DNA from: a virus
Reading direction: 5' to 3' (one strand)
IMG/VR virus record: IMGVR_UViG_3300024262_000253
Coordinates: 1 to 23,439 of that record
DNA length: 23,439 bases
Positions 3,475 to 18,759 of the stretch are shown in pieces. The notes under the pieces were generated by a model, which was not told where the DNA came from, made no database searches, and worked only from the letters and a program-made list of their open reading frames with translations. A program made the translations under genes and the position numbers. Position 1 is the first letter of the stretch; each line of letters starts with the position of its first letter.

Positions 3475-3502
3475 ATTATATAATATTATCATTGATTTAC
3501 AA
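3475..3502 (-). promoter_or_regulatory. candidate promoter for the initiator-helicase block
   Basis: On the minus strand a TTGTAA box (3502-3497) and a perfect TATAAT (3480-3475) are separated by 16 nt in very AT-rich DNA. The expected start near 3467 would give a leader of about 120 nt containing the 12-bp hairpin. This is the only gap of notable size in the leftward arm, and a local promoter would let initiator and helicase be expressed apart from the upstream operon. Confidence 0.45.
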
Positions 3503-3529
3503 TATATTTCTAAGAAAATAATTGTAAGA

Positions 3530-3583
3530 GGAGACTACAAGCAATAATCGGTCGCAGGAATAAATGAATTACCTGCAGTCTCC
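3530..3583 (-). other. imperfect inverted repeat after the glycosyltransferase-like gene
   Basis: GGAGACT (3530-3536) pairs with AGTCTCC (3577-3583), and GCAGG (3554-3558) with CCTGC (3572-3576), giving a 12-base continuous strand opposite a strand with a 17-nt bulge. In the direction of transcription the stem is followed by UCUUAC, which is only weakly U-rich. It could be a poor terminator or 3'-end structure for the upstream operon. The rest of the 278-nt gap (3345-3622) is AT-rich and shows no gene. Confidence 0.4.
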
Positions 3584-3622
3584 TTAGCTTCTTGTTCTAT
3601 TATATTATCGTTTCTTTTTGTC

Positions 3623-4693
3623 TTATTTCGTTGGAATAATATCATATTTTCCTTTTTCAAATCTTATACAGAAGTCTTTGTGGTTTGTTTTGATGTGATA
3701 TAAATGCTTATCGATTCGGTCTTTACTTAATTCTATTTTCTTACAGAGTTCTTCCATTGTGTTTTTTTGTGTGAGTAGTATCATATCAAGTCTGCCTATA
3801 CCTTTTATTCGATGCCCTAATCTAGAATGGGTTAGAATGGTTCTAAATTGCTTGGTCTTGCCTAGATAGAAGAAGTGGTTAGGGTATCGTTTTGCCCAAT
3901 ATGCTCTGAGTATTTCTAAGCACTTCTTCCAGTGGGCATTTCTTGTATCCACCACAGATTTTTTTGTTACTTTTCCTCCTTGAGGAGAGTTACCATATGT
4001 GGTACTTCTTTCGTTATCTTTCATTCGCTCGAAGGCAATGTGATGATTTTCTACAACGGGTATGTCGTGGGCGATACATTTGGCTCTAAGGGCAAAGTCG
4101 TCTAGAGGATATTCAAACCCGTACTCGGGGTCTGCCACATCCTCATCTTCATAGGGTATGTTTAGGTCGGATTTGATGAATATAGCCCACCCTGTAGCAG
4201 ACACACGACATCTATTATAGTCCTCATCCTTTTCATATAGACTTTCGAGATGGTGCGTGTATAGATATTGCTTTGGCCCGTAGCAGTGGAAGAAGCAGCA
4301 GGAGGCTGGTACCGATTGAGGATTTCGGAGGATATCTTTTATCTTTGGGATGGTGTTTTGGTATAATAGAACGTTGGTTTTTTCGTAGGGAAGTACATCA
4401 TCGTCCATGAATAGAATAGCCTTATCTTTTTCTCTATATAGAAGTTTAAGGACTTCGTTTATCTTCCTCCATTTATACATGCGTTCTTCTCGGAAGACTG
4501 CCTCGAACCCGTGTTGCTTGAATATGTCTTTCATTTTTTGGTCATAGGTACAAGCGTGGGTAACAATATGAAATTCATCTCCGAAGAGTTCTTTTAATCT
4601 TATTCGTTGTTTGATGTGCGATTCGAATCTGAATTTTCTTGTGATTCTGTCATTTCCTGGATAGGAAGGTATGACTATGTGAGGTAAATTCAT
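3623..4693 (-). CDS. GT-A-type glycosyltransferase-like protein with C-terminal winged helix
   Basis: A 356-residue protein. The N-terminal part (1-280) has features of a GT-A nucleotide-sugar transferase: HIVIPSYPG at residues 5-13, a Rossmann-like first half, and AILFMDDDVLP with DDD at 97-99 as the likely metal/nucleotide-sugar motif. PLDDFALRAKC at 196-206 could hold the catalytic acid. Residues 297-356 look like a winged helix (RLDMILLTQ, then EELCKKIELSKDRIDKHLYHI and a wing ending YDIIPTK). It overlaps the primase gene by 4 nt (ATGA). A glycosyltransferase with a DNA-binding tail among replication genes suggests that it glycosylates modified bases in phage DNA. That is inference: no base hydroxylase is visible. 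Glycosylation of another target remains possible. Confidence 0.6.
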   Translation of the reverse strand: MNLPHIVIPSYPGNDRITRKFRFESHIKQRIRLKELFGDEFHIVTHACTYDQKMKDIFKQHGFEAVFREERMYKWRKINEVLKLLYREKDKAILFMDDDVLPYEKTNVLLYQNTIPKIKDILRNPQSVPASCCFFHCYGPKQYLYTHHLESLYEKDEDYNRCRVSATGWAIFIKSDLNIPYEDEDVADPEYGFEYPLDDFALRAKCIAHDIPVVENHHIAFERMKDNERSTTYGNSPQGGKVTKKSVVDTRNAHWKKCLEILRAYWAKRYPNHFFYLGKTKQFRTILTHSRLGHRIKGIGRLDMILLTQKNTMEELCKKIELSKDRIDKHLYHIKTNHKDFCIRFEKGKYDIIPTK

Positions 4694-7889: not shown

Positions 7890-8630
7890 TTATTGTTTAC
7901 CTACTAATCGTGATGCAATGGCTCTCGGGTTTCCTCCTACAATCTTAATGAATTGTTTGAGTTCTTCTATAGTGAAGGAGCCTCCTATAGAGGAGACCTC
8001 TAATAATTCTGTGTCTATTTTCTTAAATCTCATCCAAAATTGGTTTCCTTGTTTGTAGAGATATTTGAAGGGGGGTTCGTAAGGAGTGGGATTGGATAGT
8101 TCTACTCCGAGTTCTTCGCAGAGTTGCTTATGGAATTCTTTTGATTCTTTTATTCTTTGTTCTCCCTTTTGTTCTGCTACTATTGATTCATCTATTTTGG
8201 CACGTCCAACTGTGAGAGCCTCTTCAACTCTTTCTATTACCCCTTCTAGATATCTTGACTTTGTTGCTTTGGGATTACTATATTGTCCATTGGGATAATA
8301 TGTGTTGGTTATAGGCACCCTGAGAACTATAGCACATCTTTTTTCGTTTTCGTAGAGCCATTTGATGTGAACTTTTATTAGGCAGTTTTTATGTTTTTGG
8401 GTCAGGGTGATTTCATAGGGTTGAGTTCTACCCGTCTCGAATTTGTCTCTTGCTTCGGTAGCTGTACTTGAGATATTATAGGAGATATAAGAGTGTTCTT
8501 CTTTGAACCGGGGTAGTACTTGGAGAGCCTTTGCAACCATTACCAAGGGTAGTTCCTCCCAGTTTTTGGGAAGGGTAGGTTGAACTAATTTTGTTCTTTT
8601 CTTTCTTGTTTTCAAATCTTTTGTAGACAT
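7890..8630 (-). CDS. hypothetical phage protein
   Basis: A 246-residue soluble protein I do not recognise. The N-terminus is basic (KTRKKRTKLVQ). The middle holds beta-rich stretches (YEITLTQKHKNCLIKVHIKWL and CAIVLRVPITNTYYP). A charged helical region follows at about 135-180. The C-terminal part has FWMRFKKIDTELLEVSSIGG and a helix ending ASRLVGKQ. No membrane segment or catalytic motif stands out. It is cotranscribed with the MoxR/VWA genes (19 nt downstream of the VWA-like gene), so a part in that module is possible. Confidence 0.65.
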   Translation of the reverse strand: MSTKDLKTRKKRTKLVQPTLPKNWEELPLVMVAKALQVLPRFKEEHSYISYNISSTATEARDKFETGRTQPYEITLTQKHKNCLIKVHIKWLYENEKRCAIVLRVPITNTYYPNGQYSNPKATKSRYLEGVIERVEEALTVGRAKIDESIVAEQKGEQRIKESKEFHKQLCEELGVELSNPTPYEPPFKYLYKQGNQFWMRFKKIDTELLEVSSIGGSFTIEELKQFIKIVGGNPRAIASRLVGKQ

Positions 8631-8648: not shown

Positions 8649-9809
8649 TTAGTTCGAGAATTGTACTGTTGCTCCGAATGGGGCTTTTTTATCCTTTGTT
8701 GTGGTAAGCCACATGGTAGGGTAGTTTGGTTCTTGTTTTGGAAATCTGCCGTGCATGTCTGTGAAGTATATTAGGCAGGAGGGTGTGAGGTTTTGTTTTT
8801 CGATATGGTCAAACACAGGACGGAAGTCTGTCCCTCCACCACCTACAGGTTTTAGTTTCATTGGAAAGTCTGCTCGGGTGAATGTTTCTTCTTTTTGTAT
8901 TCTATTGTTACAGTATATGATTTTGATTGTGGTATCGTAAGCACTAAGGACATTGGACGCCTCTGCAGCGAATGTAGATAAAGCCTTTTTGTCTATACTC
9001 CCACTGGTATCTATTGCTATGATTGTTTCTGGAAGTTCTTCACTGATGAGGCTTGGTAGTACGATACCTTGTCCTATGTATCTCCTTGATGGTCTCATCC
9101 AGTTGTAGTCGTTGCGGGCAGTTTTTTCTACAAAATCTCTCAATAAGATATACCAAGGTATTGTGGGGTTGAGAATTTCTTGTATTTGTCTTTTGATATT
9201 TGCTGGTAGTGTTCCTTTTGCCAATTGGGCAGCTTGTACGGTTGCTGCTTGCCATTCTGCTTTTAATTCTTTTTCTTCTTGTTTGTTCTTTGTGGGTAGG
9301 ATTATACCGCACATACCTGGGTCTGTTTTGCAGTCTTCTTTTTTATTATCTTGTTGCTTACTCTGTTGTTTGTTCTTGTCTTGTTGCTTGGTCTTGTCTT
9401 CCTTCTTATTGGTTTGTGATGCTATTTGAGCATAGATTCCTTCAGAGGAGAATGCATCATATCTTGAGTCTATCAAAGCACCTTCCGGCAGGCAAAAACC
9501 GGTGCTTATCAAGTTTTGGTTAATAGCATAGTCGCTTGCTATGTTCCATATCATAGGGTCTCTTGTGCCTTGTCTCCAGGAATGTCCTAAGGATAGATGC
9601 ATTACTTCGTGGGCCAATACACCTATCATCTCTCTTGTTGATAGGGAATCTATATATTTAGAATTATAGTAGATTCCTTTTCCGTCTGTTGCTAATGTTG
9701 GAAACGAATTGTCTTCTACTAATGACAATCGCAGTGATAAGACACCGAAGAAAGGATGGTCAAGAACAAGAGCAGAACGGGCCTTTAAGATTTTATCTAA
9801 GGTCGACAT
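8649..9809 (-). CDS. metallopeptidase-like / VWA domain protein (DUF2201-like)
   Basis: A 386-residue protein with a zincin-like N-terminal part and a VWA-like C-terminal part, the layout of DUF2201 proteins. The N-terminal domain has HEVMH at 67-71 followed by LSLGHSWRQ, matching an HExxH zinc site, and DYAINQNL after it. A low-complexity Lys/Gln/Asp linker spans about 133-162. The VWA-like part begins near 260 with IIAIDTSGSID (DTSGS at 267-271, a MIDAS metal site) and continues with GGGGTDF near 323-329. It ends close to the MoxR-type ATPase start, and such VWA proteins usually work with MoxR ATPases as chaperone-like pairs. Both metal-binding motifs look intact. The target in phage biology is unknown. 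Confidence 0.8.
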   Translation of the reverse strand: MSTLDKILKARSALVLDHPFFGVLSLRLSLVEDNSFPTLATDGKGIYYNSKYIDSLSTREMIGVLAHEVMHLSLGHSWRQGTRDPMIWNIASDYAINQNLISTGFCLPEGALIDSRYDAFSSEGIYAQIASQTNKKEDKTKQQDKNKQQSKQQDNKKEDCKTDPGMCGIILPTKNKQEEKELKAEWQAATVQAAQLAKGTLPANIKRQIQEILNPTIPWYILLRDFVEKTARNDYNWMRPSRRYIGQGIVLPSLISEELPETIIAIDTSGSIDKKALSTFAAEASNVLSAYDTTIKIIYCNNRIQKEETFTRADFPMKLKPVGGGGTDFRPVFDHIEKQNLTPSCLIYFTDMHGRFPKQEPNYPTMWLTTTKDKKAPFGATVQFSN

Positions 9810-12602: not shown

Positions 12603-12737
12603 ATAACCATCGGTGGCGTAGCAGCGTCAGGTTGATAGCTCAGGTAGATTATAGTCAAGCGTTGCATGAACTGCTAATGATGCGACCGCCTAGGAGTTTT
12701 TCGGTAGGAGCCGGGTGGGGAATCCGGCCCGATGGTT
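12603..12737 (+). ncRNA. structured leader RNA element, copy 1
   Basis: A 135-nt element closed by a perfect 9-bp stem AACCAUCGG (12605-12613) with CCGAUGGUU (12729-12737). The first 29 nt match copy 2 (18357-18385) at 26 positions, with all three differences being transitions. The last 28 nt (12710-12737) match copy 2 exactly and contain a hairpin GCCGG/CCGGC around the loop GUGGGGAAU. The middle is not shared; here it can form GUUGCAU/AUGCGAC (12661-12667 with 12681-12687). The match continues through UAUAUGAAAGGA, the ribosome site of the downstream reading frame. Conserved ends, a variable middle and a fixed spot before an SD suggest a cis-acting RNA such as a riboswitch or translation element. 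No known family was recognised. Confidence 0.7.
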
Positions 12738-12757
12738 CTATATGAAAGGACAGAACG

Positions 12758-12829
12758 ATGTTTTTTATCCGTGTTCTACCGTGTCCAGCGTTTTTTAGAA
12801 AGGAAGGTTGTAGTGATAGAAACGTGTGA
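12758..12829 (+). CDS. 23-codon leader ORF overlapping the co-chaperonin start
   Basis: A 23-residue ORF (MFFIRVLPCPAFFRKEGC...) whose ATG has the ideal AAAGGA site 7 nt upstream, supplied by the structured RNA. Its stop lies 17 nt inside the co-chaperonin gene, which begins at GTG 12813 in another frame. Its translation could control the downstream start by coupling. It may instead be the debris of a gene that once followed the RNA element. No homology was recognised. Confidence 0.4.
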   Translation: MFFIRVLPCPAFFRKEGCSDRNV

Positions 12830-13253
12830 AATTTGTGGGAAGAGGTATATATTAGAACCTAGCAAACCTTCTCTTCCAGATTACTATGAGAAGGTTCCTT
12901 TCTTTTGTAAAGGATGTGGGAACATACGATTTGATATGCGTGCTATTCAGGGTAAGGTTATACTCTATCCGTTTCCTCCGGAGAAGACATATGAAGGAAC
13001 TTCTATAGAAGTTCCTATTCAGTATCAGGAGTTTTACAAAGCATGGAAGGGGTTTGTTCTTTCAGTGGGCTCTGGATATTATGAGCAGAGTGGGCAGTTT
13101 ATTCCTACGACATTAGAAGAGGGTTCGCTCGTTCTATTCAATCGAGATGTGCCTTGGTATGGTACTCGTAAGGGATTGGATGGTAAAGAGCATCCTATTG
13201 TTCTTTGTGGTGAGAGAGACGTGTGGATAGTACTTTCAGATAATGTGGTTTAG
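12813..13253 (+). CDS. GroES-like co-chaperonin with N-terminal zinc ribbon
   Basis: 146 residues. Residues 1-40 form a zinc ribbon with Cys5-x2-Cys8 and Cys32-x2-Cys35 (CEICGK and CKGCGN). The remainder reads like a Cpn10/GroES fold: IQGKVILYPFPPE as the first strand, EKTYEGTSIEVPIQ where the GroEL-binding mobile loop lies, GFVLSVGSGYYEQSGQFIP (the GKVLAVGxG region), LEEGSLVLFNRD, and GERDVWIVLSDNV as the final strand. Such phage proteins (T4 gp31 type) partner host GroEL to fold capsid proteins. The GTG at 12813 is chosen for its AGGAAGG site and because the longer frame from ATG 12732 starts inside the RNA stem. GroES proteins are normally about 95 residues, so the extra ribbon is unusual. 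Confidence 0.7.
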   Translation: MIETCEICGKRYILEPSKPSLPDYYEKVPFFCKGCGNIRFDMRAIQGKVILYPFPPEKTYEGTSIEVPIQYQEFYKAWKGFVLSVGSGYYEQSGQFIPTTLEEGSLVLFNRDVPWYGTRKGLDGKEHPIVLCGERDVWIVLSDNVV

Positions 13254-13467
13254 GGGTGTCTTAATTATTTCTAGGAAAGTAAATAAAGAAATTGTTCAAA
13301 AGGAATTGGAAAGGATACTAAAAAAGTTCGGTCCTCGAAGGGGTTTGCAGTATCTTGTAGGGATTATACCTTTCTTGCCTATGGAAGAAAGGGAGGCCTA
13401 TAACGGTCAAATCCACGACTTGGAAGAGAAGGTAAAGGAGAGGAATAGTCGATTGATAGAGTATTGA
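13243..13467 (+). CDS. small protein between co-chaperonin and terminase genes
   Basis: 74 residues, mostly helical and charged: VNKEIVQKELERILKKFGPRR, then GLQYLVGIIPFLPMEEREAY and a C-terminal LEEKVKERNSRL helix. The ATG at 13243 overlaps the end of the co-chaperonin gene by 11 nt. No good ribosome site is seen, so translation probably depends on coupling. Not recognised. Confidence 0.6.
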   Translation: MWFRGVLIISRKVNKEIVQKELERILKKFGPRRGLQYLVGIIPFLPMEEREAYNGQIHDLEEKVKERNSRLIEY

Positions 13468-13492
13468 CTTTCCAGGTATTATCTATTATAAT
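13464..13492 (+). promoter_or_regulatory. sigma70-type promoter giving a leaderless terminase transcript
   Basis: TTGACT (13464-13469) and a perfect TATAAT (13487-13492) are separated by 17 nt. The usual start distance puts the transcript's first base at about 13499-13501, on or next to the ATG of the next gene at 13501. No SD-like sequence precedes that ATG, so the message would be essentially leaderless. Confidence 0.65.
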
Positions 13493-13500
13493 ATATATAA

Positions 13501-14040
13501 ATGGCAAACATACAGAAATATGTCTTGGAAGAGAAGATTAGATTGTTGCATGCTAAGCATCGAGGTAATATCTTAGCAATGTCGGAGGAGTCTAATCTTT
13601 CTATTGAGTATGTAAGGAAGATTGCGAATAAAATTAAGAAGAAGTGTTCACGGGATGTTTCATATCTTATTTCACAGACCTTAATGGAGCATATCTTGGA
13701 GGGTCATAGGCAACGGGTTTCCCATTTAGAAGATTCTTTGAGAAATGTAGACTCATTGTCACCAAAGGGCATTGGATTGAAATTGGCTGTTATAGAGTCC
13801 TTGCGATTGGAAGATGTTGCACTTGTTTCTTTTGCGGAGAAGATGGGTTATACGAATAAGGAACAGGTTCCTAATCAGAAAATAGAGCAGAATATTATTT
13901 ATTTTCCTAATGTAGGTAAGAGGGATGTTGCTATAGCAGACGAAATAGCTAATCTTCCTCCTAGGGAAAGAGAGAGAATAAGGAAGGAATTGGAGAGGAA
14001 GATTGGGAATATAGAGTTGGTAGGAGCAGTGGAAAAATAA
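13501..14040 (+). CDS. HTH protein, candidate small terminase subunit
   Basis: 179 residues. The N-terminal part has a helix-turn-helix look: EEKIRLLHAKHRGNILAMSE, then SNLSIEYVRKIANKIKKK. Long helices follow, as in oligomerising TerS cores, with a C-terminal LPPRERERIRKELERKIG helix. It lies 2 nt before the large terminase gene, the usual TerS place. TerS recognises the packaging site and feeds DNA to the motor. Family-level similarity is weak, so the call leans on position, length and HTH. The start at 13501 overlaps a likely transcription start, which suggests leaderless translation. Confidence 0.65.
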   Translation: MANIQKYVLEEKIRLLHAKHRGNILAMSEESNLSIEYVRKIANKIKKKCSRDVSYLISQTLMEHILEGHRQRVSHLEDSLRNVDSLSPKGIGLKLAVIESLRLEDVALVSFAEKMGYTNKEQVPNQKIEQNIIYFPNVGKRDVAIADEIANLPPRERERIRKELERKIGNIELVGAVEK

Positions 14041-14042
14041 AT

Positions 14043-16007
14043 ATGGGTAGGTATCGTAATATAGATAGGGTGGAGACATATTTAGAATATATGTACAAAT
14101 TGGATTATAAAGAGCGTCCTGTAAGCATACGACGATTTATATGTGAGGATAGATTTTTGGGTAAGTCGACTGCTGGAGGGAAGGCAGTTTATGATGTTTG
14201 GAAGAGAGAGTTAGATAATATTTTTTCTGAGGACAAATGGTATCTTGTGGTATTGACAGGAGCTATCGGGATAGGCAAGACATTTGCAGATATGGTAGGT
14301 ATTGCCTATGTCATGTATAGGATTTTATGTCTAAAAGAACCTTGGAGTTTCTTTGGTTTAGCGTCCGGAAGTAAGATGAGCATAGCATTTTTTAATCTGA
14401 CTAAGACGTTGAGTGCTTCTAAGGGTTATAATCTTTTGCAGTCGTTGATAACAAATTCTTCTTGGTTTGTAGAGCGGGGAAACCTACGAGGGATAAAGGA
14501 GCCTTATTTAGATTTTCCGTTATTTAGATATGTATTAGCTTCTCCGTATGCTTCTGGATTTGGTACGGTGGGAGAAGATGTTATTGTAGCCTCAATGGAC
14601 GAGGTAGACTCTTCTATGGTTTCGGAGAAGGTTAAGATGAAGATATTAAAGGCCTATGAATCTACTGTTCGTAGGTTTATATCTAGGTTTGTTGTGGACG
14701 ACGAATCATTAGGCAAGTTTTTTCTGGTGTCTTCTAAGCAGGATACCATGTCTTTTATTGATACCTTTGTGGAAGAGCATAAGAACTCTGGTAGGATGTA
14801 TGTGGTAGATATCCCTATTTGGGAGGCCAAACCGAATGCTAATTATTGTGGAGATAAGTTTAAGGTGTCTGTAGGAGATGTATATCACCCACCTCAAATA
14901 TTGCATACTCAAGCAGATACAGACTTAGTTATATCTAGTGGTTATGAGATTATAGAAGTTCCAGTAGAATATAGAGAAGACTTTGATATGGATATTGTAG
15001 GGGCTCTACGAGACATAGCAGGCAGGTCGGTAGAGGGTATCAGTAAGTCTAAGCTGTTTCCTTCGGAGAATATAATTAGTGATTGTTATGATCCAGATAA
15101 GGAGAATCCTGTTTCTATGTCTACGATAGAAATAGGATTGAAAGATGATATAGACCTTATGAACTTTTTAGATATGAGTAAGATTACTCTTCCTTTGAAT
15201 GTTCCTAGAGTAATTCATATAGATATAGCCTACGCAGGGGATGGAGATGCTTTGGGTCTAGGAATGTCGGGAATCTGTGGATGGACGAATGTAGATGTAG
15301 AAAAAGAAGAAGGTGTTATAGCAACGCAAAAGGTTCCAGTTGTAGAAACAGATTTTGCTATGCGAATAAAGGCTAGGTCAGGAGACCAAATTCCTTTACA
15401 CAAAGTAAGGCAGTTCATTTTTTCGTTGCGACGTAAGGGCTTCAATATATTAAAGGTTACATCGGATTTGAGGCTAGCATCTGCCGATACGACACAGTTG
15501 TTGGAGCGTGCGGGAATAGATACTGGTTACTTGAGTCTAGATAAGAGTGTGCAGAATTATCTAGATTTTAGGAACTTGGTGTTTGAGGGGCGTTGGGTAT
15601 TTTTCCACTACGGGTACGCTCATTTTGAATTGAAGAACTTGCTGTACGATAGAGTAAAGCAGAAAGTAGACCATCCTGATAAGGTAAAAGATATAGTGCT
15701 TCTAGACGACAGCGGTATCAAAGAAGTCGTTTTGAAGGGGAGTAAAGATTTGTCAGACGGTATTGTGGGTTCTGTCATAGGCATCATAAATGAGAGTGAA
15801 ATACCTGTTGAGGTAGGAGCTATGAGGCAACTTGCTAAGAAGGTGTTGAGCCCCTCGAAGGAAAAGAAGAAAGAATATTGGTGGGTAGATATAGAGGAAT
15901 CTCAAGGTAAAGAAGCGGTTAGTTCTGCCCCATCTAATATGACAAAACAGGAGACCAAGACGTTTTTGAGTATATTGAAGAAGGTCGGTAAAGGGAGAGA
16001 TTTGTGA
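14043..16007 (+). CDS. large terminase subunit (ATPase and nuclease)
   Basis: A 654-residue packaging motor. ATPase domain: Walker A GAIGIGKT (73-80), Walker B VIVASMDEVD (180-189) with the catalytic Glu inside, and coupling motif FFLVSSKQD (226-234). Nuclease domain (RNase H-like): IHIDIAYAGD with Asp394, KVTSDL with Asp475 and LSDGIVGSV with Asp572, the expected acidic triad. It cuts concatemers and pumps DNA through the portal. The genes for HTH/TerS upstream and portal downstream fit, but about 5.3 kb of other genes lie between terminase and portal. It is longer than many TerL proteins, with extra sequence between the domains. Confidence 0.9.
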   Translation: MGRYRNIDRVETYLEYMYKLDYKERPVSIRRFICEDRFLGKSTAGGKAVYDVWKRELDNIFSEDKWYLVVLTGAIGIGKTFADMVGIAYVMYRILCLKEPWSFFGLASGSKMSIAFFNLTKTLSASKGYNLLQSLITNSSWFVERGNLRGIKEPYLDFPLFRYVLASPYASGFGTVGEDVIVASMDEVDSSMVSEKVKMKILKAYESTVRRFISRFVVDDESLGKFFLVSSKQDTMSFIDTFVEEHKNSGRMYVVDIPIWEAKPNANYCGDKFKVSVGDVYHPPQILHTQADTDLVISSGYEIIEVPVEYREDFDMDIVGALRDIAGRSVEGISKSKLFPSENIISDCYDPDKENPVSMSTIEIGLKDDIDLMNFLDMSKITLPLNVPRVIHIDIAYAGDGDALGLGMSGICGWTNVDVEKEEGVIATQKVPVVETDFAMRIKARSGDQIPLHKVRQFIFSLRRKGFNILKVTSDLRLASADTTQLLERAGIDTGYLSLDKSVQNYLDFRNLVFEGRWVFFHYGYAHFELKNLLYDRVKQKVDHPDKVKDIVLLDDSGIKEVVLKGSKDLSDGIVGSVIGIINESEIPVEVGAMRQLAKKVLSPSKEKKKEYWWVDIEESQGKEAVSSAPSNMTKQETKTFLSILKKVGKGRDL

Positions 16008-16025
16008 GTATTTTAGGAATATGTC

Positions 16026-16670
16026 GTGAGAAACGAGCGGTTAGTCATACTGAAGGATTTATTTTTGGAGTATCAAAAGAATCCTTGTTTAAGTACGTTT
16101 GAGAGTATTTTGAAACGTGTAGACAATTTTATTCTATATGTGGTGAAGAACCTAAAGCGGTCTCGATATTACTTGAACACGGTTGGTACGGGAGAGTTGT
16201 ATCAAGTAGGAGTGATAGGAATTTACGATGCTATCAATAGTTTTAAGCCCGAATATAATTGTTCTATGATTCCTGCTAGAATGAAGATTTGCATACGAAA
16301 AGCTATAACAAAATCTTATTGTTGCTATAAGAAGGAAATGGTTGTAGTAGAGCCTCGCGATTCAGAATATAATGACATCTTGGGTCTATATTTTGACTCT
16401 TCTGAAGATGGGGTTTGTGAAAGGGATGAAGTAGATTTGGTAGTTAGACATATAGGTAGGTTATTGGCTGTAGATATTCTTTCTGAGGAAGATATGTTTC
16501 TAATTAGAGAAAGGATATTGCTAGGAAAGCCTCTGCATGTTCTGGCTGAAGTCTTAGGAGTTCGGGGTCAAACAATACTCAATAGAACTAAGAAATTGAA
16601 GAATCGAATTTTATCTTCTATATCTGCAGAACAGTTTGATATGGAGTTTAGAAAGATTAGAAGGCGGTGA
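16026..16670 (+). CDS. sigma70-like factor (late arm)
   Basis: 214 residues from a GTG start with AGGA 7 nt upstream. The region-2-like part is VDNFILYVVKNLKRSRYYLNT, then GELYQVGVIGIYDAINSFKPEYN, which matches the sigma DLxQEGxxGLxxAxxxF(D/K)P pattern, then ARMKICIRKAI. The region-4-like HTH is near the C-terminus: EDMFLIRERILLGKPLHVLAEVLGV followed by RGQTILNRTKKLKNRIL. Both halves are shorter than in full sigma factors. It probably directs host polymerase to phage promoters, perhaps late ones. It directly follows the large terminase gene. Confidence 0.75.
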   Translation: MRNERLVILKDLFLEYQKNPCLSTFESILKRVDNFILYVVKNLKRSRYYLNTVGTGELYQVGVIGIYDAINSFKPEYNCSMIPARMKICIRKAITKSYCCYKKEMVVVEPRDSEYNDILGLYFDSSEDGVCERDEVDLVVRHIGRLLAVDILSEEDMFLIRERILLGKPLHVLAEVLGVRGQTILNRTKKLKNRILSSISAEQFDMEFRKIRRR

Positions 16671-16758
16671 GAATAAATAATAATAGTATCTAAATTATAG
16701 GAGGAAAAGACGATAATAAGAATATAGAAGGTACTGTAAAGATATAGGTGAAGGACTC

Positions 16759-16953
16759 ATGAAGGTTAGAGTAGGTGATAAGATATACGATGGTGAGAAG
16801 GAACCTGTTATGGTGCTCTTGACGACGCAGGATAAGTGTAATATATCGAACATGTCTAAGGATGACCATAGGTATTGTCAGTATCCAGAGGACTGGACAA
16901 GGGAAAACATATGGTGTTGGTTGGCTCAAGAGCAAGAGATAATGTCTCAATAA
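16759..16953 (+). CDS. small conserved phage protein
   Basis: 64 residues (MKVRVGDKIYDGEKEP...). A beta-rich first half with VGDKIYDGEKEPVMVLLT is followed by an acidic segment with NISNM and CQYPEDW, and a Trp-rich helix ends the protein. It resembles small conserved hypothetical proteins seen in many tailed phages. The function is unknown. AAGGA lies 5 nt before the ATG. It still has the AT-rich codon use of the phage core and sits just before the compositional change at about 16.98 kb. Confidence 0.65.
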   Translation: MKVRVGDKIYDGEKEPVMVLLTTQDKCNISNMSKDDHRYCQYPEDWTRENIWCWLAQEQEIMSQ

Positions 16954-16985
16954 ACGACGAACTGTGAAGCAAAAGGGACAGAATG

Positions 16986-17264
16986 ATGGTTACTAATGAA
17001 GAATTTGAAAGAATGAAAGAAGAGCGGGACGAACTCAAGAACCAGCTTGACATCGAGCGGATAGGCCACCGTGACCAAATAAGAAAGTTAGAGGCCGAAC
17101 TCGCCGCCGAAAGTATTAGCACCCACAATTCTGCCGTTGAAATAGATGAACTTAAAGACATATTAGAGAGCTTGGTTGATATTCAAAACGGCCCGCCACT
17201 AATAAGAGCCACAGACAAATGGAATGAAATAATGACCAAAGCATATAAATTGTTAGGTAGGTAA
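16986..17264 (+). CDS. coiled-coil protein, first gene of the inserted cassette
   Basis: 92 residues; residues 1-60 are a clear coiled coil (EEFERMKEERDELKNQLD, then DQIRKLEAELAAES). A short globular tail contains GPPLIRATDKWNEIM. The second of two adjacent ATGs (16986) is preferred because the upstream string GGGACAGAATGATG matches the ribosome region of the genes at 12758 and 20164, where the equivalent second position is the start. From here GC content rises and codons such as GCC, GAC and CTT become common, unlike the terminase gene. Not recognised. Confidence 0.65.
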   Translation: MVTNEEFERMKEERDELKNQLDIERIGHRDQIRKLEAELAAESISTHNSAVEIDELKDILESLVDIQNGPPLIRATDKWNEIMTKAYKLLGR

Positions 17265-17299
17265 TTTTTAGCCAAAATGGCAGAAACGGAGCGTGAGTT

Positions 17300-17449
17300 A
17301 TGAGCCTTAATAGTTGTGAACACGATGAAGGCATAATGGTGTTTGATAGTATCAAGTGTCCTTATTGTGAGTTGCAGACCGAAAAAGAAGATTTAGAAAA
17401 TAATCTTAGCGGGTTGCAGGCCGAGATTGATAGAGTTGAATCTAATTAG
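17300..17449 (+). CDS. 49-residue zinc-finger/coiled-coil mini-protein
   Basis: A short ORF, MSLNSCEHDEGIM..., with a CPYC knuckle at residues 20-23 and further Cys6/His8 upstream, which together could bind one zinc. An amphipathic helix LQTEKEDLENNLSGLQAEID follows. GGAG lies 9 nt before the ATG, and codon use matches the cassette. It overlaps no other supported gene except for a short stretch upstream of the lipoprotein start. Function unknown. Confidence 0.55.
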   Translation: MSLNSCEHDEGIMVFDSIKCPYCELQTEKEDLENNLSGLQAEIDRVESN

Positions 17450-17474
17450 CCCAGACGGGCAGGACGGAGTTGTT

Positions 17475-17726
17475 ATGAAAAAGAGAATGGTATTGTTGGT
17501 AGTGGTATTGGCACTTGTTGTGTCAATGGTAGGTTGTCGAGGGGTTGTCTTAAATGCAAAGTATTCTGATCTACTTGACAGAACGGCAGCGGTGTCGGCG
17601 GAAATGGCAAACAGGGCTAATGAAGACAAGCTGTCGGCGGATGACATGAAATCGGCTTTGACTTTGCAGGCAAAGACGTGGCAGTTGTTTCAGGACGCAC
17701 GGGACGGTAAAGGGGGTGATGAATAA
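17475..17726 (+). CDS. small phage lipoprotein
   Basis: 83 residues from the ATG at 17475 (MKKRMVLLVVVLALVVSMVGCRG...). A classic lipoprotein signal peptide ends in the lipobox SMVGC, so Cys21 should be lipidated and the mature 63-residue, mostly helical protein anchored to a membrane. A longer reading from 17427 would bury the signal and is rejected. The stop overlaps the next start as TAATG. Possible roles are an outer-membrane spanin-like lysis factor or superinfection exclusion. The sequence does not decide; it lacks the Pro-rich character of lambda Rz1. Confidence 0.7.
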   Translation: MKKRMVLLVVVLALVVSMVGCRGVVLNAKYSDLLDRTAAVSAEMANRANEDKLSADDMKSALTLQAKTWQLFQDARDGKGGDE

Positions 17727-18064
17727 TGCCGAAAAAAATAATGACAATTGAAGAGCTGACGGCGAAGTTGCCAGAGGAATTTCATCCAGTAGCGGCAAAG
17801 TATGGGCCTGTGTTGCTTGATATGGCAGTAGATGAACTGTGGAATTGGTTAGAGTTGATGGTTATGGGAAAAATTGTGGTAGCATATCAAGTATTAATAA
17901 GTCGAATGCCTAATAGCGATTTGCTTGCGGAGCTTGACAAGTTAAATGTGGACTGGGAAAAAGAGAACAAGGCCAATGCACAGAGACTTGATTTGCAACG
18001 GAATGCGTTATTTGCAATTCTTCGTGTGGTGTTACAGATGGTTTTAGCCCTGGTGGGTCTTTAA
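17726..18064 (+). CDS. protein with C-terminal hydrophobic tail
   Basis: 112 residues, translationally coupled to the lipoprotein gene (TAATG). The N-terminal half is soluble and helical (IEELTAKLPEEFHPVAAKYG), a central hydrophobic helix is around residues 38-60 (LWNWLELMVMGKIVVAYQVL), and the last 20 residues (ALFAILRVVLQMVLALVGL) look membrane-inserting. It sits between lipoprotein and holin-like genes, so a lysis-related membrane role is possible. Not recognised. Confidence 0.65.
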   Translation: MPKKIMTIEELTAKLPEEFHPVAAKYGPVLLDMAVDELWNWLELMVMGKIVVAYQVLISRMPNSDLLAELDKLNVDWEKENKANAQRLDLQRNALFAILRVVLQMVLALVGL

Positions 18065-18104
18065 TGCCTGGGTGGCCTGGAAACTTATTTTAAGGATGTA
18101 TTTT

Positions 18105-18344
18105 GTGGATAAAAAAGAAGTGATTAAATTGCTGGCCGGAACAGTTGCCAGAGGCTTGATGTGGGGAATAGCAACCTTGTCAGCTTATCTTGGAACCGAG
18201 ACATTAGATGAAGATACGACCGGCAAGCTGGCTTATTTTCTAACAAGTGTGGCTGTTGCGATTATTGCAACAATCTGGTCGAAAAAGAAAGACACAAAGC
18301 TGGCGGCAGCAGAACCGAAAAACGAGACCAATGACAAGCTCTGA
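18105..18344 (+). CDS. holin-like two-pass membrane protein
   Basis: 79 residues from GTG 18105, chosen because AAGGA lies 9 nt upstream; a longer frame from GTG 18072 has no ribosome site. There are two hydrophobic helices: AGTVARGLMWGIATLSAYLG (about 9-28) and LAYFLTSVAVAIIATIW (about 40-56). A short acidic turn separates them, and a strongly charged C-terminal tail (KKKDTKLAAAEPKNE) follows. This is the layout of class II phage holins, which form membrane holes for lysis. The candidate spanin pair lies 1 kb downstream, but no endolysin is visible. Confidence 0.65.
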   Translation: MDKKEVIKLLAGTVARGLMWGIATLSAYLGTETLDEDTTGKLAYFLTSVAVAIIATIWSKKKDTKLAAAEPKNETNDKL

Positions 18345-18356
18345 GAGAGCGAGAGA

Positions 18357-18489
18357 ATAACCATCGGCGGCGTGGCAGCGTCGGGCGTAAGAGCGATTAG
18401 TTCAGAACTATGTAACTGCTTGAAAGAGATGTGTAATATACTGTCTAATTTATTACTGGGTGCCGGGTGGGGAATCCGGCCCGATGGTT
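18357..18489 (+). ncRNA. structured leader RNA element, copy 2
   Basis: The second copy of the 12603-12737 element, 133 nt long. The closing 9-bp stem (18359-18367 with 18481-18489) and the 3' hairpin GCCGG/CCGGC with loop GUGGGGAAU (18462-18480) are base-identical to copy 1. The 5' conserved block differs only by three transitions. The middle is unrelated to copy 1. It begins 12 nt after the holin-like gene and runs straight into UAUAUGAAAGGA, the ribosome site of the next gene. Conservation of the ends with a divergent interior points to selection on RNA structure. Confidence 0.7.
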
Positions 18490-18513
18490 TATATGAAAGG
18501 AAAAAAGATAGAT

Positions 18514-18759
18514 ATGTGTATTCAAATAGCTTGCGAAAACAATGGTCATTTCTGTGACGCAATGAGGAACATGCTTATAGCTTCCGAGATAGCCATGGAA
18601 CCTTTTACTGTGTATCGGCCAAAGTTGTATCCTGATGGAAACCAGTGGTGTGTCTTATTGGGAGACAATTTACAGTCCGGCCTTTGTGGTTTCGGAGATA
18701 CCCCACGATTAGCTGTTGAAGACTTCAATAGAAATTTTAATCTTCAAACGCTTAAATAA
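18514..18759 (+). CDS. small conserved phage protein with the YPDGNQWC motif
   Basis: 81 residues from the ATG at 18514, which follows a GAAAGGA site supplied at the end of the RNA element. The second half contains RPKLYPDGNQWCVLLGDNLQ and SGLCGFGDTPRLAVEDFNRN. This recurrent sequence type is seen in many small hypothetical proteins of tailed phages and resembles the compact HicB-like fold in layout. The function is unknown. In-frame ATGs at 18484 and 18493 lie within or at the edge of the RNA stem and are less likely starts. Confidence 0.7.
   Translation: MCIQIACENNGHFCDAMRNMLIASEIAMEPFTVYRPKLYPDGNQWCVLLGDNLQSGLCGFGDTPRLAVEDFNRNFNLQTLK

Follow-up and report, generated by a model that had tools for sequence, protein, structure and literature searches.

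The IMG/VR virus record IMGVR_UViG_3300024262_000253, all 23,439 bases of which make up the window analyzed here, carries two copies of an RNA element, at positions 12605–12737 (copy 1, 133 nucleotides (nt)) and 18359–18489 (copy 2, 131 nt), both on the plus strand. They belong to a conserved family of structured phage RNAs that has a tRNA-like end and tRNA genes among its neighbors. About 80 distinct elements share the architecture of the window copies; their carriers are unrelated uncultured phages and, in rare cases, bacterial genomes. The family was previously uncatalogued, and we found no description of it in the literature searched, which covered few subscription journals. With somewhat less than even confidence, we favor reading these elements as tRNA-like phage RNAs of a new class, which are probably excised from operon transcripts and would act in trans.

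Both window copies are closed by the same 9-bp stem, P1, whose strands AACCATCGG and CCGATGGTT lie at 12605–12613 and 12729–12737 in copy 1, and at 18359–18367 and 18481–18489 in copy 2. The hairpin P2 comes next (TGGCG-UAGCAG-CGUCA at 12614–12629 in copy 1, CGGCG-UGGCAG-CGUCG at 18368–18383 in copy 2), and its loop (12619–12624 and 18373–18378) forms a pseudoknot, P3, with a segment in the middle of the element. In copy 1 this partner is CUGCUA (CTGCTA in the DNA, 12671–12676), enclosed by helix P5 (GUUGCAU/AUGCGAC, 12661–12686), and in copy 2 it is CUGCU (CTGCT, 18416–18420). An optional hairpin CCUA..UAGG (12689–12708) is predicted from the single sequence of copy 1. The last hairpin, P4 (GCCGG-GUGGGGAAU-CCGGC), is the same in both copies (12710–12728 and 18462–18480) and joins P1 with no spacer. 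It resembles a T-arm and stacks directly on the closing stem P1, in a tRNA-like layout. The P4 loop GUGGGGAAU after GGAG (12715–12723 and 18468–18475) also resembles the conserved GGGAGGCAGCAGUGGGGAAU of bacterial 16S rRNA, which may be a coincidence.

The 3' 28-mer is identical between the copies, with a chance expectation of about 4 x 10−9. Two of the differences at the 5' end, T12614-A12629 in copy 1 versus C18368-G18383 in copy 2, constitute a compensatory swap in P2. The remaining difference is in the P2 loop (A12620 versus G18374), where pairing to the middle is kept (an A-U versus a G-U pseudoknot pair). The initial annotation of this DNA had described duplicated elements with a common 9-bp closing stem and an identical P4 hairpin, all of which are present as described. 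It had also called the middles unrelated; they are indeed variable, but both contain the pseudoknot partner of the P2 loop.

To collect the family, we used the 17-nt P4 core as a seed and scanned IMG/VR and 257 Gb of cellular genomes. The scan located it in 77 IMG/VR stretches, most of which also showed, unprompted, complementary end stems and a GGCG..CGYC hairpin just after the 5' stem. A covariance model, R1, was built from 36 elements, P1 pairing being used in choosing these 36 rows, and it detects a complete element in about 70 of the 77 stretches. By comparison, the cellular genomes have 86 stretches with the same 17-mer but a complete element by R1 in only about eight, belonging to Desulfovibrio relatives, Thiodiazotropha, a Chromatiales bacterium and a Gemmatimonadales bacterium. 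Among whole genomes scanned from two host orders, 1 of 247 and 3 of 195 had the element. The element in L146 belongs to a prophage of Solidesulfovibrio alcoholivorans DSM 5433. A tRNA-like stretch and then an HNH endonuclease-like gene stand downstream of the element in two gammaproteobacterial genomes (loci L094 and L168). Scans anchored on P2 yielded few extra members, and exact P2 matches without P4 are mostly due to chance. A P4 variant with CCAG/CUGG instead of CCGG was found in 6 stretches, compared with 77 for CCGG, so the sequence of the P4 stem itself matters.

The family has no match in Rfam; the initial annotation, too, had recognized no known RNA family. Neither window copy matches any Rfam 15 model at E-values up to 10, the models including HEARO, GOLLD, ROOL, C4, group I and II introns, riboswitches, transfer-messenger RNA and ribozymes. 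Rfam searches of 20 and 10 family loci and of seven loci of a sister type (described below) returned only separate tRNA genes or chance matches, and neither ARAGORN nor the Rfam tRNA model calls the window elements. A BLAST search of 50,697 annotated phage records produced no convincing copy, the best matches (MT835574 and MT835541, 13 and 19 bits) being without P4.

Folded singly, the two window copies are barely above shuffled sequence (z = −1.3 and −1.5), so the case for a structured RNA rests on comparison. There are 62 distinct P1 sequences among 65 elements, yet 7.58 of 8 pairs form with an element's own partner strand, compared with 3.92 when the partner is taken from other phages; this swap is a cleaner test for P1 than a covariation score, since P1 pairing had helped to select the 36 rows. 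In P1 and P2 together, 12 pairs change on both sides, with a covariation score of 0.50 versus 0.15 in shuffles; for the closing stem, there are 125 double-change cells versus 37 in shuffles. The pseudoknot P3, in which the six bases of the P2 loop pair with the middle, has a combined P = 2 x 10−19 and occurs in many compensated versions (among them UGGCAG/CUGCCA, UGUCAG/CUGACA, UGACAG/CUGUCA and UUGCAG/CUGCAA), and P5, which encloses the partner segment, has a combined P = 4 x 10−6. P4 is near-invariant across the family, with rare compensated variants CCAG/CUGG (L188, L189 and L191) and AUCGG/CCGAU (L048). The initial annotation had suggested looking for covarying pairs in the closing stem; these are present, and we found neither of the outcomes it had named as contrary, namely uncompensated primary-sequence copies or a known repeat. 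Finally, G-U pairs exceed A-C mismatches by 34 to 7 in P1 and by 38 to 3 in P2, which indicates that the folded strand is the sense (transcribed) strand, although selection of elements by the model may add some bias to this comparison.

The elements are co-oriented with transcription and fit snugly between genes, typically starting 1–24 nt past a stop codon and ending 15–34 nt ahead of a start codon with a ribosome site. This arrangement suits a cis-acting intergenic leader or insulator within a polycistronic transcript, which would set the stability, processing, translation or RNA-polymerase behavior of the next small gene, much as in the HK022 put RNA. We regard such a role as possible but somewhat unlikely. 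In its favor, a small gene stands behind most of the elements of phage G038 (see below), and copy 1 in the window heads a rightward gene block with a weak promoter-like site 115 nt upstream. However, the genes behind the elements are unrelated small open reading frames (ORFs), the same gene is accompanied by different elements in the related phages G038 and G009, several phages have tRNA genes as the neighbors, and copies can be in tandem with no intervening gene (three at L031, two each at L048 and L024, and also in G038). Across 78 loci there are almost no common genes, the largest protein cluster covering four loci, and a riboswitch or a gene-specific leader was rejected because no gene is common to the loci. 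A riboswitch-like leader for one ligand would account for the compact pseudoknotted fold and the near-invariant loop, but we consider it very improbable given the variable middle, the lack of a common regulated gene or pathway, and the fact that scans recognized no terminator or sequestered ribosome site at the window copies. Given the same observations on unrelated genes, tRNA neighbors and tandem copies, the suggestion in the initial annotation that the RNA exists to control the two genes behind the window copies is not supported. The family may still have a generic cis role, in processing, insulation or translation.

Where loci bear tRNA genes, the elements tend to be close to them: 8 of 12 elements lie at most 350 nt from a tRNA on the same strand, compared with 1.9 expected. 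For example, two tandem elements at L048 are 9 nt from a tRNA-Arg, and the distance at L009 is 3 nt. By eye, the interior of the element at L025 (3208–3365) resembles a degenerate tRNA-Arg in which the anticodon loop is shortened and the D-loop holds the P5/pseudoknot-partner hairpin.

A sister type strengthens the resemblance in layout. Some elements that share P1 with family members carry P4 loops such as UAUCGAAU or UAUCAAGC, and a scan with GCCGGTATCRAATCCGGYC found 30 stretches; at 21 of 31 sites, P4 is abutted by an 8-bp stem that is well paired but variable in sequence. Several members of the sister type GCCGG-UAUCGAAU-CCGGC immediately precede tRNA genes. Its shortest member, at L248, is flanked by tRNA-Pro and tRNA-Thr, and its fold is a cloverleaf made up of a 7-bp acceptor, a 5-bp anticodon-like arm (6-nt loop), a 5-bp T-arm (8-nt loop) and CCA, though ARAGORN does not call it. 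Both types co-occur in L077, L265, L266, L268 and L275.

Two tRNA arrays contain further structured intervals. At L273, the interval 3484–3904 between two tRNA genes is structured (folding z = −7.1) and contains an element, two more hairpin-closed stretches and a tRNA-like RNA whose anticodon region has a long insertion. At L248 (8043–9145), nearly all gaps between consecutive tRNA genes are 67–145 nt long, often tRNA-sized, and several have closing-stem folds, for example 8043–8120 (z = −2.6) and 9065–9145 (z = −2.9).

The elements lie in operons with small accessory and tRNA genes. If they are excised RNAs that act in trans, they would be transcribed within the operon and cut out at P1 by host enzymes that process tRNAs or double-stranded RNA. 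The resulting stable RNA of about 100–190 nt could then use its conserved P2-P5-P4 core to act on a host partner that is itself widely conserved. Its tRNA-like end would point to the translation or tRNA apparatus as the target, or to tRNA-attacking nucleases for which the RNA might serve as a decoy, and the fast-changing middle is compatible with an arms race. A role against tRNA-directed defenses or in translation is attractive because it would bring together the tRNA-like end, the conserved loop and the fast-changing middle. A broader proposal, which we hold to be doubtful, is that phages keep a fast-evolving repertoire of tRNA-like pseudoknotted RNAs, with phage-specific P1 stems and swapped cores, interleaved with tRNA and small accessory genes and possibly acting in trans on host translation or tRNA-targeting defenses.

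Several points weigh against an excised, trans-acting tRNA-like RNA. The family is known from sequence alone; the spacing of many elements from the stop and start codons is what a leader would have; and the majority of loci have no recognized tRNA. P1 varies in length from 8 to more than 14 bp, unlike a tRNA acceptor stem. What ties the GUGGGGAAU type to the tRNA-shaped one is layout, a shared P1 in L077 and co-occurrence, not sequence homology, and R1 does not match the rnaC and rnaD RNAs of phage T4, to which we return below.

Copies within one phage often have a common P1, as the window pair and several other multi-copy phages do. One such case is G038, which has eight ATGGCGG and eight CCGCCAT sites; every one of them is paired, giving eight elements of the same orientation in 3.7 kb, with different core types and interleaved with small genes. 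Further P1-sharing pairs have the same orientation in 7 loci, compared with 0.2 expected with foreign P1 sequences, although some of these matches may be unrelated, such as L021, L075 and L080. G038 and G009 are related phages, and in the three places inspected their collinearity is lost at the 5' edge of P1. These patterns would fit a boundary or mobile element at the DNA level, in which P1 would be a terminal inverted repeat or a point of recombination and each gene would be exchanged together with its element as a cassette, an explanation that we nevertheless consider decidedly unlikely. Strand-specific use of G-U pairs, the conserved pseudoknot and the P4 loop indicate RNA; no recombinase or transposase neighbor is common to the loci; and homologous recombination between repeated ends would produce identical breakpoints. 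Moreover, the related prophages L014 and L050 retain one core (97% identical) while P1 changes by compensated mutations. We found no relatives of the window's terminase, and hence there was no empty-site comparison for the window itself.

Different genes stand behind the two window copies. Copy 1 is followed on the plus strand by a ribosome-site-like GAAAGGA and a 23-codon ORF (together 12744–12829; ORF 12758–12829, ATG at 12758), which overlaps the start of the next gene. That gene (12813–13253, plus strand, GTG start at 12813) encodes a paired N-terminal CxxC motif and a GroES-like (Cpn10) domain (PF00166, E = 7.4 x 10−7), so that its earlier labeling as a zinc-ribbon co-chaperonin was right. 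Behind copy 2 are another ribosome-site-like GAAAGGA and a gene for an 81-residue protein with the motif YPDGNQWC (together 18495–18759, plus strand, ATG at 18514), which has no match in Pfam or PHROG. A ribosome site is present behind both copies, as first annotated, but the one behind copy 1 feeds the 23-codon ORF before the co-chaperonin-like gene. Elsewhere in the window, 16026–16670 weakly matches phage RNA polymerase sigma factors (PHROG 351, E = 3 x 10−4).

Several known systems resemble the family in part. Integron attC sites have constant RYYYAAC/GTTRRRY end cores, whereas the end stems of the family are not constant, differing in 62 of 65 elements; the excess of G-U over A-C favors the sense strand rather than bottom-strand folding of the attC kind, subject to the possible bias from model-based selection. 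GOLLD and ROOL RNAs sometimes lie near tRNAs. They are several hundred nt long, however, and their Rfam models do not match the family. Large and ornate, they come from phages and mobile DNA (PMC12286853). The SAS and ESAS repeats of Cluster K mycobacteriophages are likewise phage-specific and precede small phage genes in the same orientation, with an inverted repeat that differs between subclusters (PMC3203893, PMC11373665). ESAS consists of 17-bp imperfect inverted repeats with a 4–13 bp spacer and a promoter, upstream of the 13-bp SAS (PMC3203893), whereas the family does not have this anatomy and encloses about 80–300 nt of conserved RNA fold in place of the short spacer. The HK022 put RNA is a structured phage RNA with two similar copies per genome, in the early operons, each made of two simple stem-loops near promoters (PMC9378689). 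From its description it is set apart from our family, whose RNAs are pseudoknotted and present in up to eight copies inside operons.

Phage tRNA genes share with the family the closing stem with a stacked T-arm-like hairpin and the position in arrays, and the sister type includes, as its shortest member, a complete cloverleaf with CCA. They differ in that R1-type elements have no anticodon arm or D-loop/T-loop contact bases, having the P2-P5 pseudoknot instead, and even the sister-type member at L248 has 6-nt and 8-nt loops rather than the 7-nt anticodon loop and 7-nt T-loop of a tRNA. Strong covariation in an RNA family that spans about 80 unrelated phages, and that neither Rfam nor the papers searched contain, implies that the accessory regions of phages include a conserved class of RNA genes invisible to annotation. 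Should the family turn out to act in cis or to mark the boundaries of cassettes, it would account for the expression of small accessory genes or for their exchange between phages.

The system with the most similar setting is that of the T4 species 1 and 2 RNAs (rnaC and rnaD), which are 139 and 119 nt long and follow tRNA-Arg directly, one after the other, in a tRNA cluster. With filters off, R1 scores rnaC at 4.2 bits (E = 9.5) and does not match rnaD, and the T4 RNAs lack the GGCAGCG P2 loop and the GUGGGGAAU loop, but rnaC has a similar T-arm-like end hairpin, CCGGGUUCGAAUCCCGG. If the family does act in trans on translation or on tRNA-cleaving defenses, it would offer a handle on these long-unexplained stable RNAs of phage tRNA clusters.

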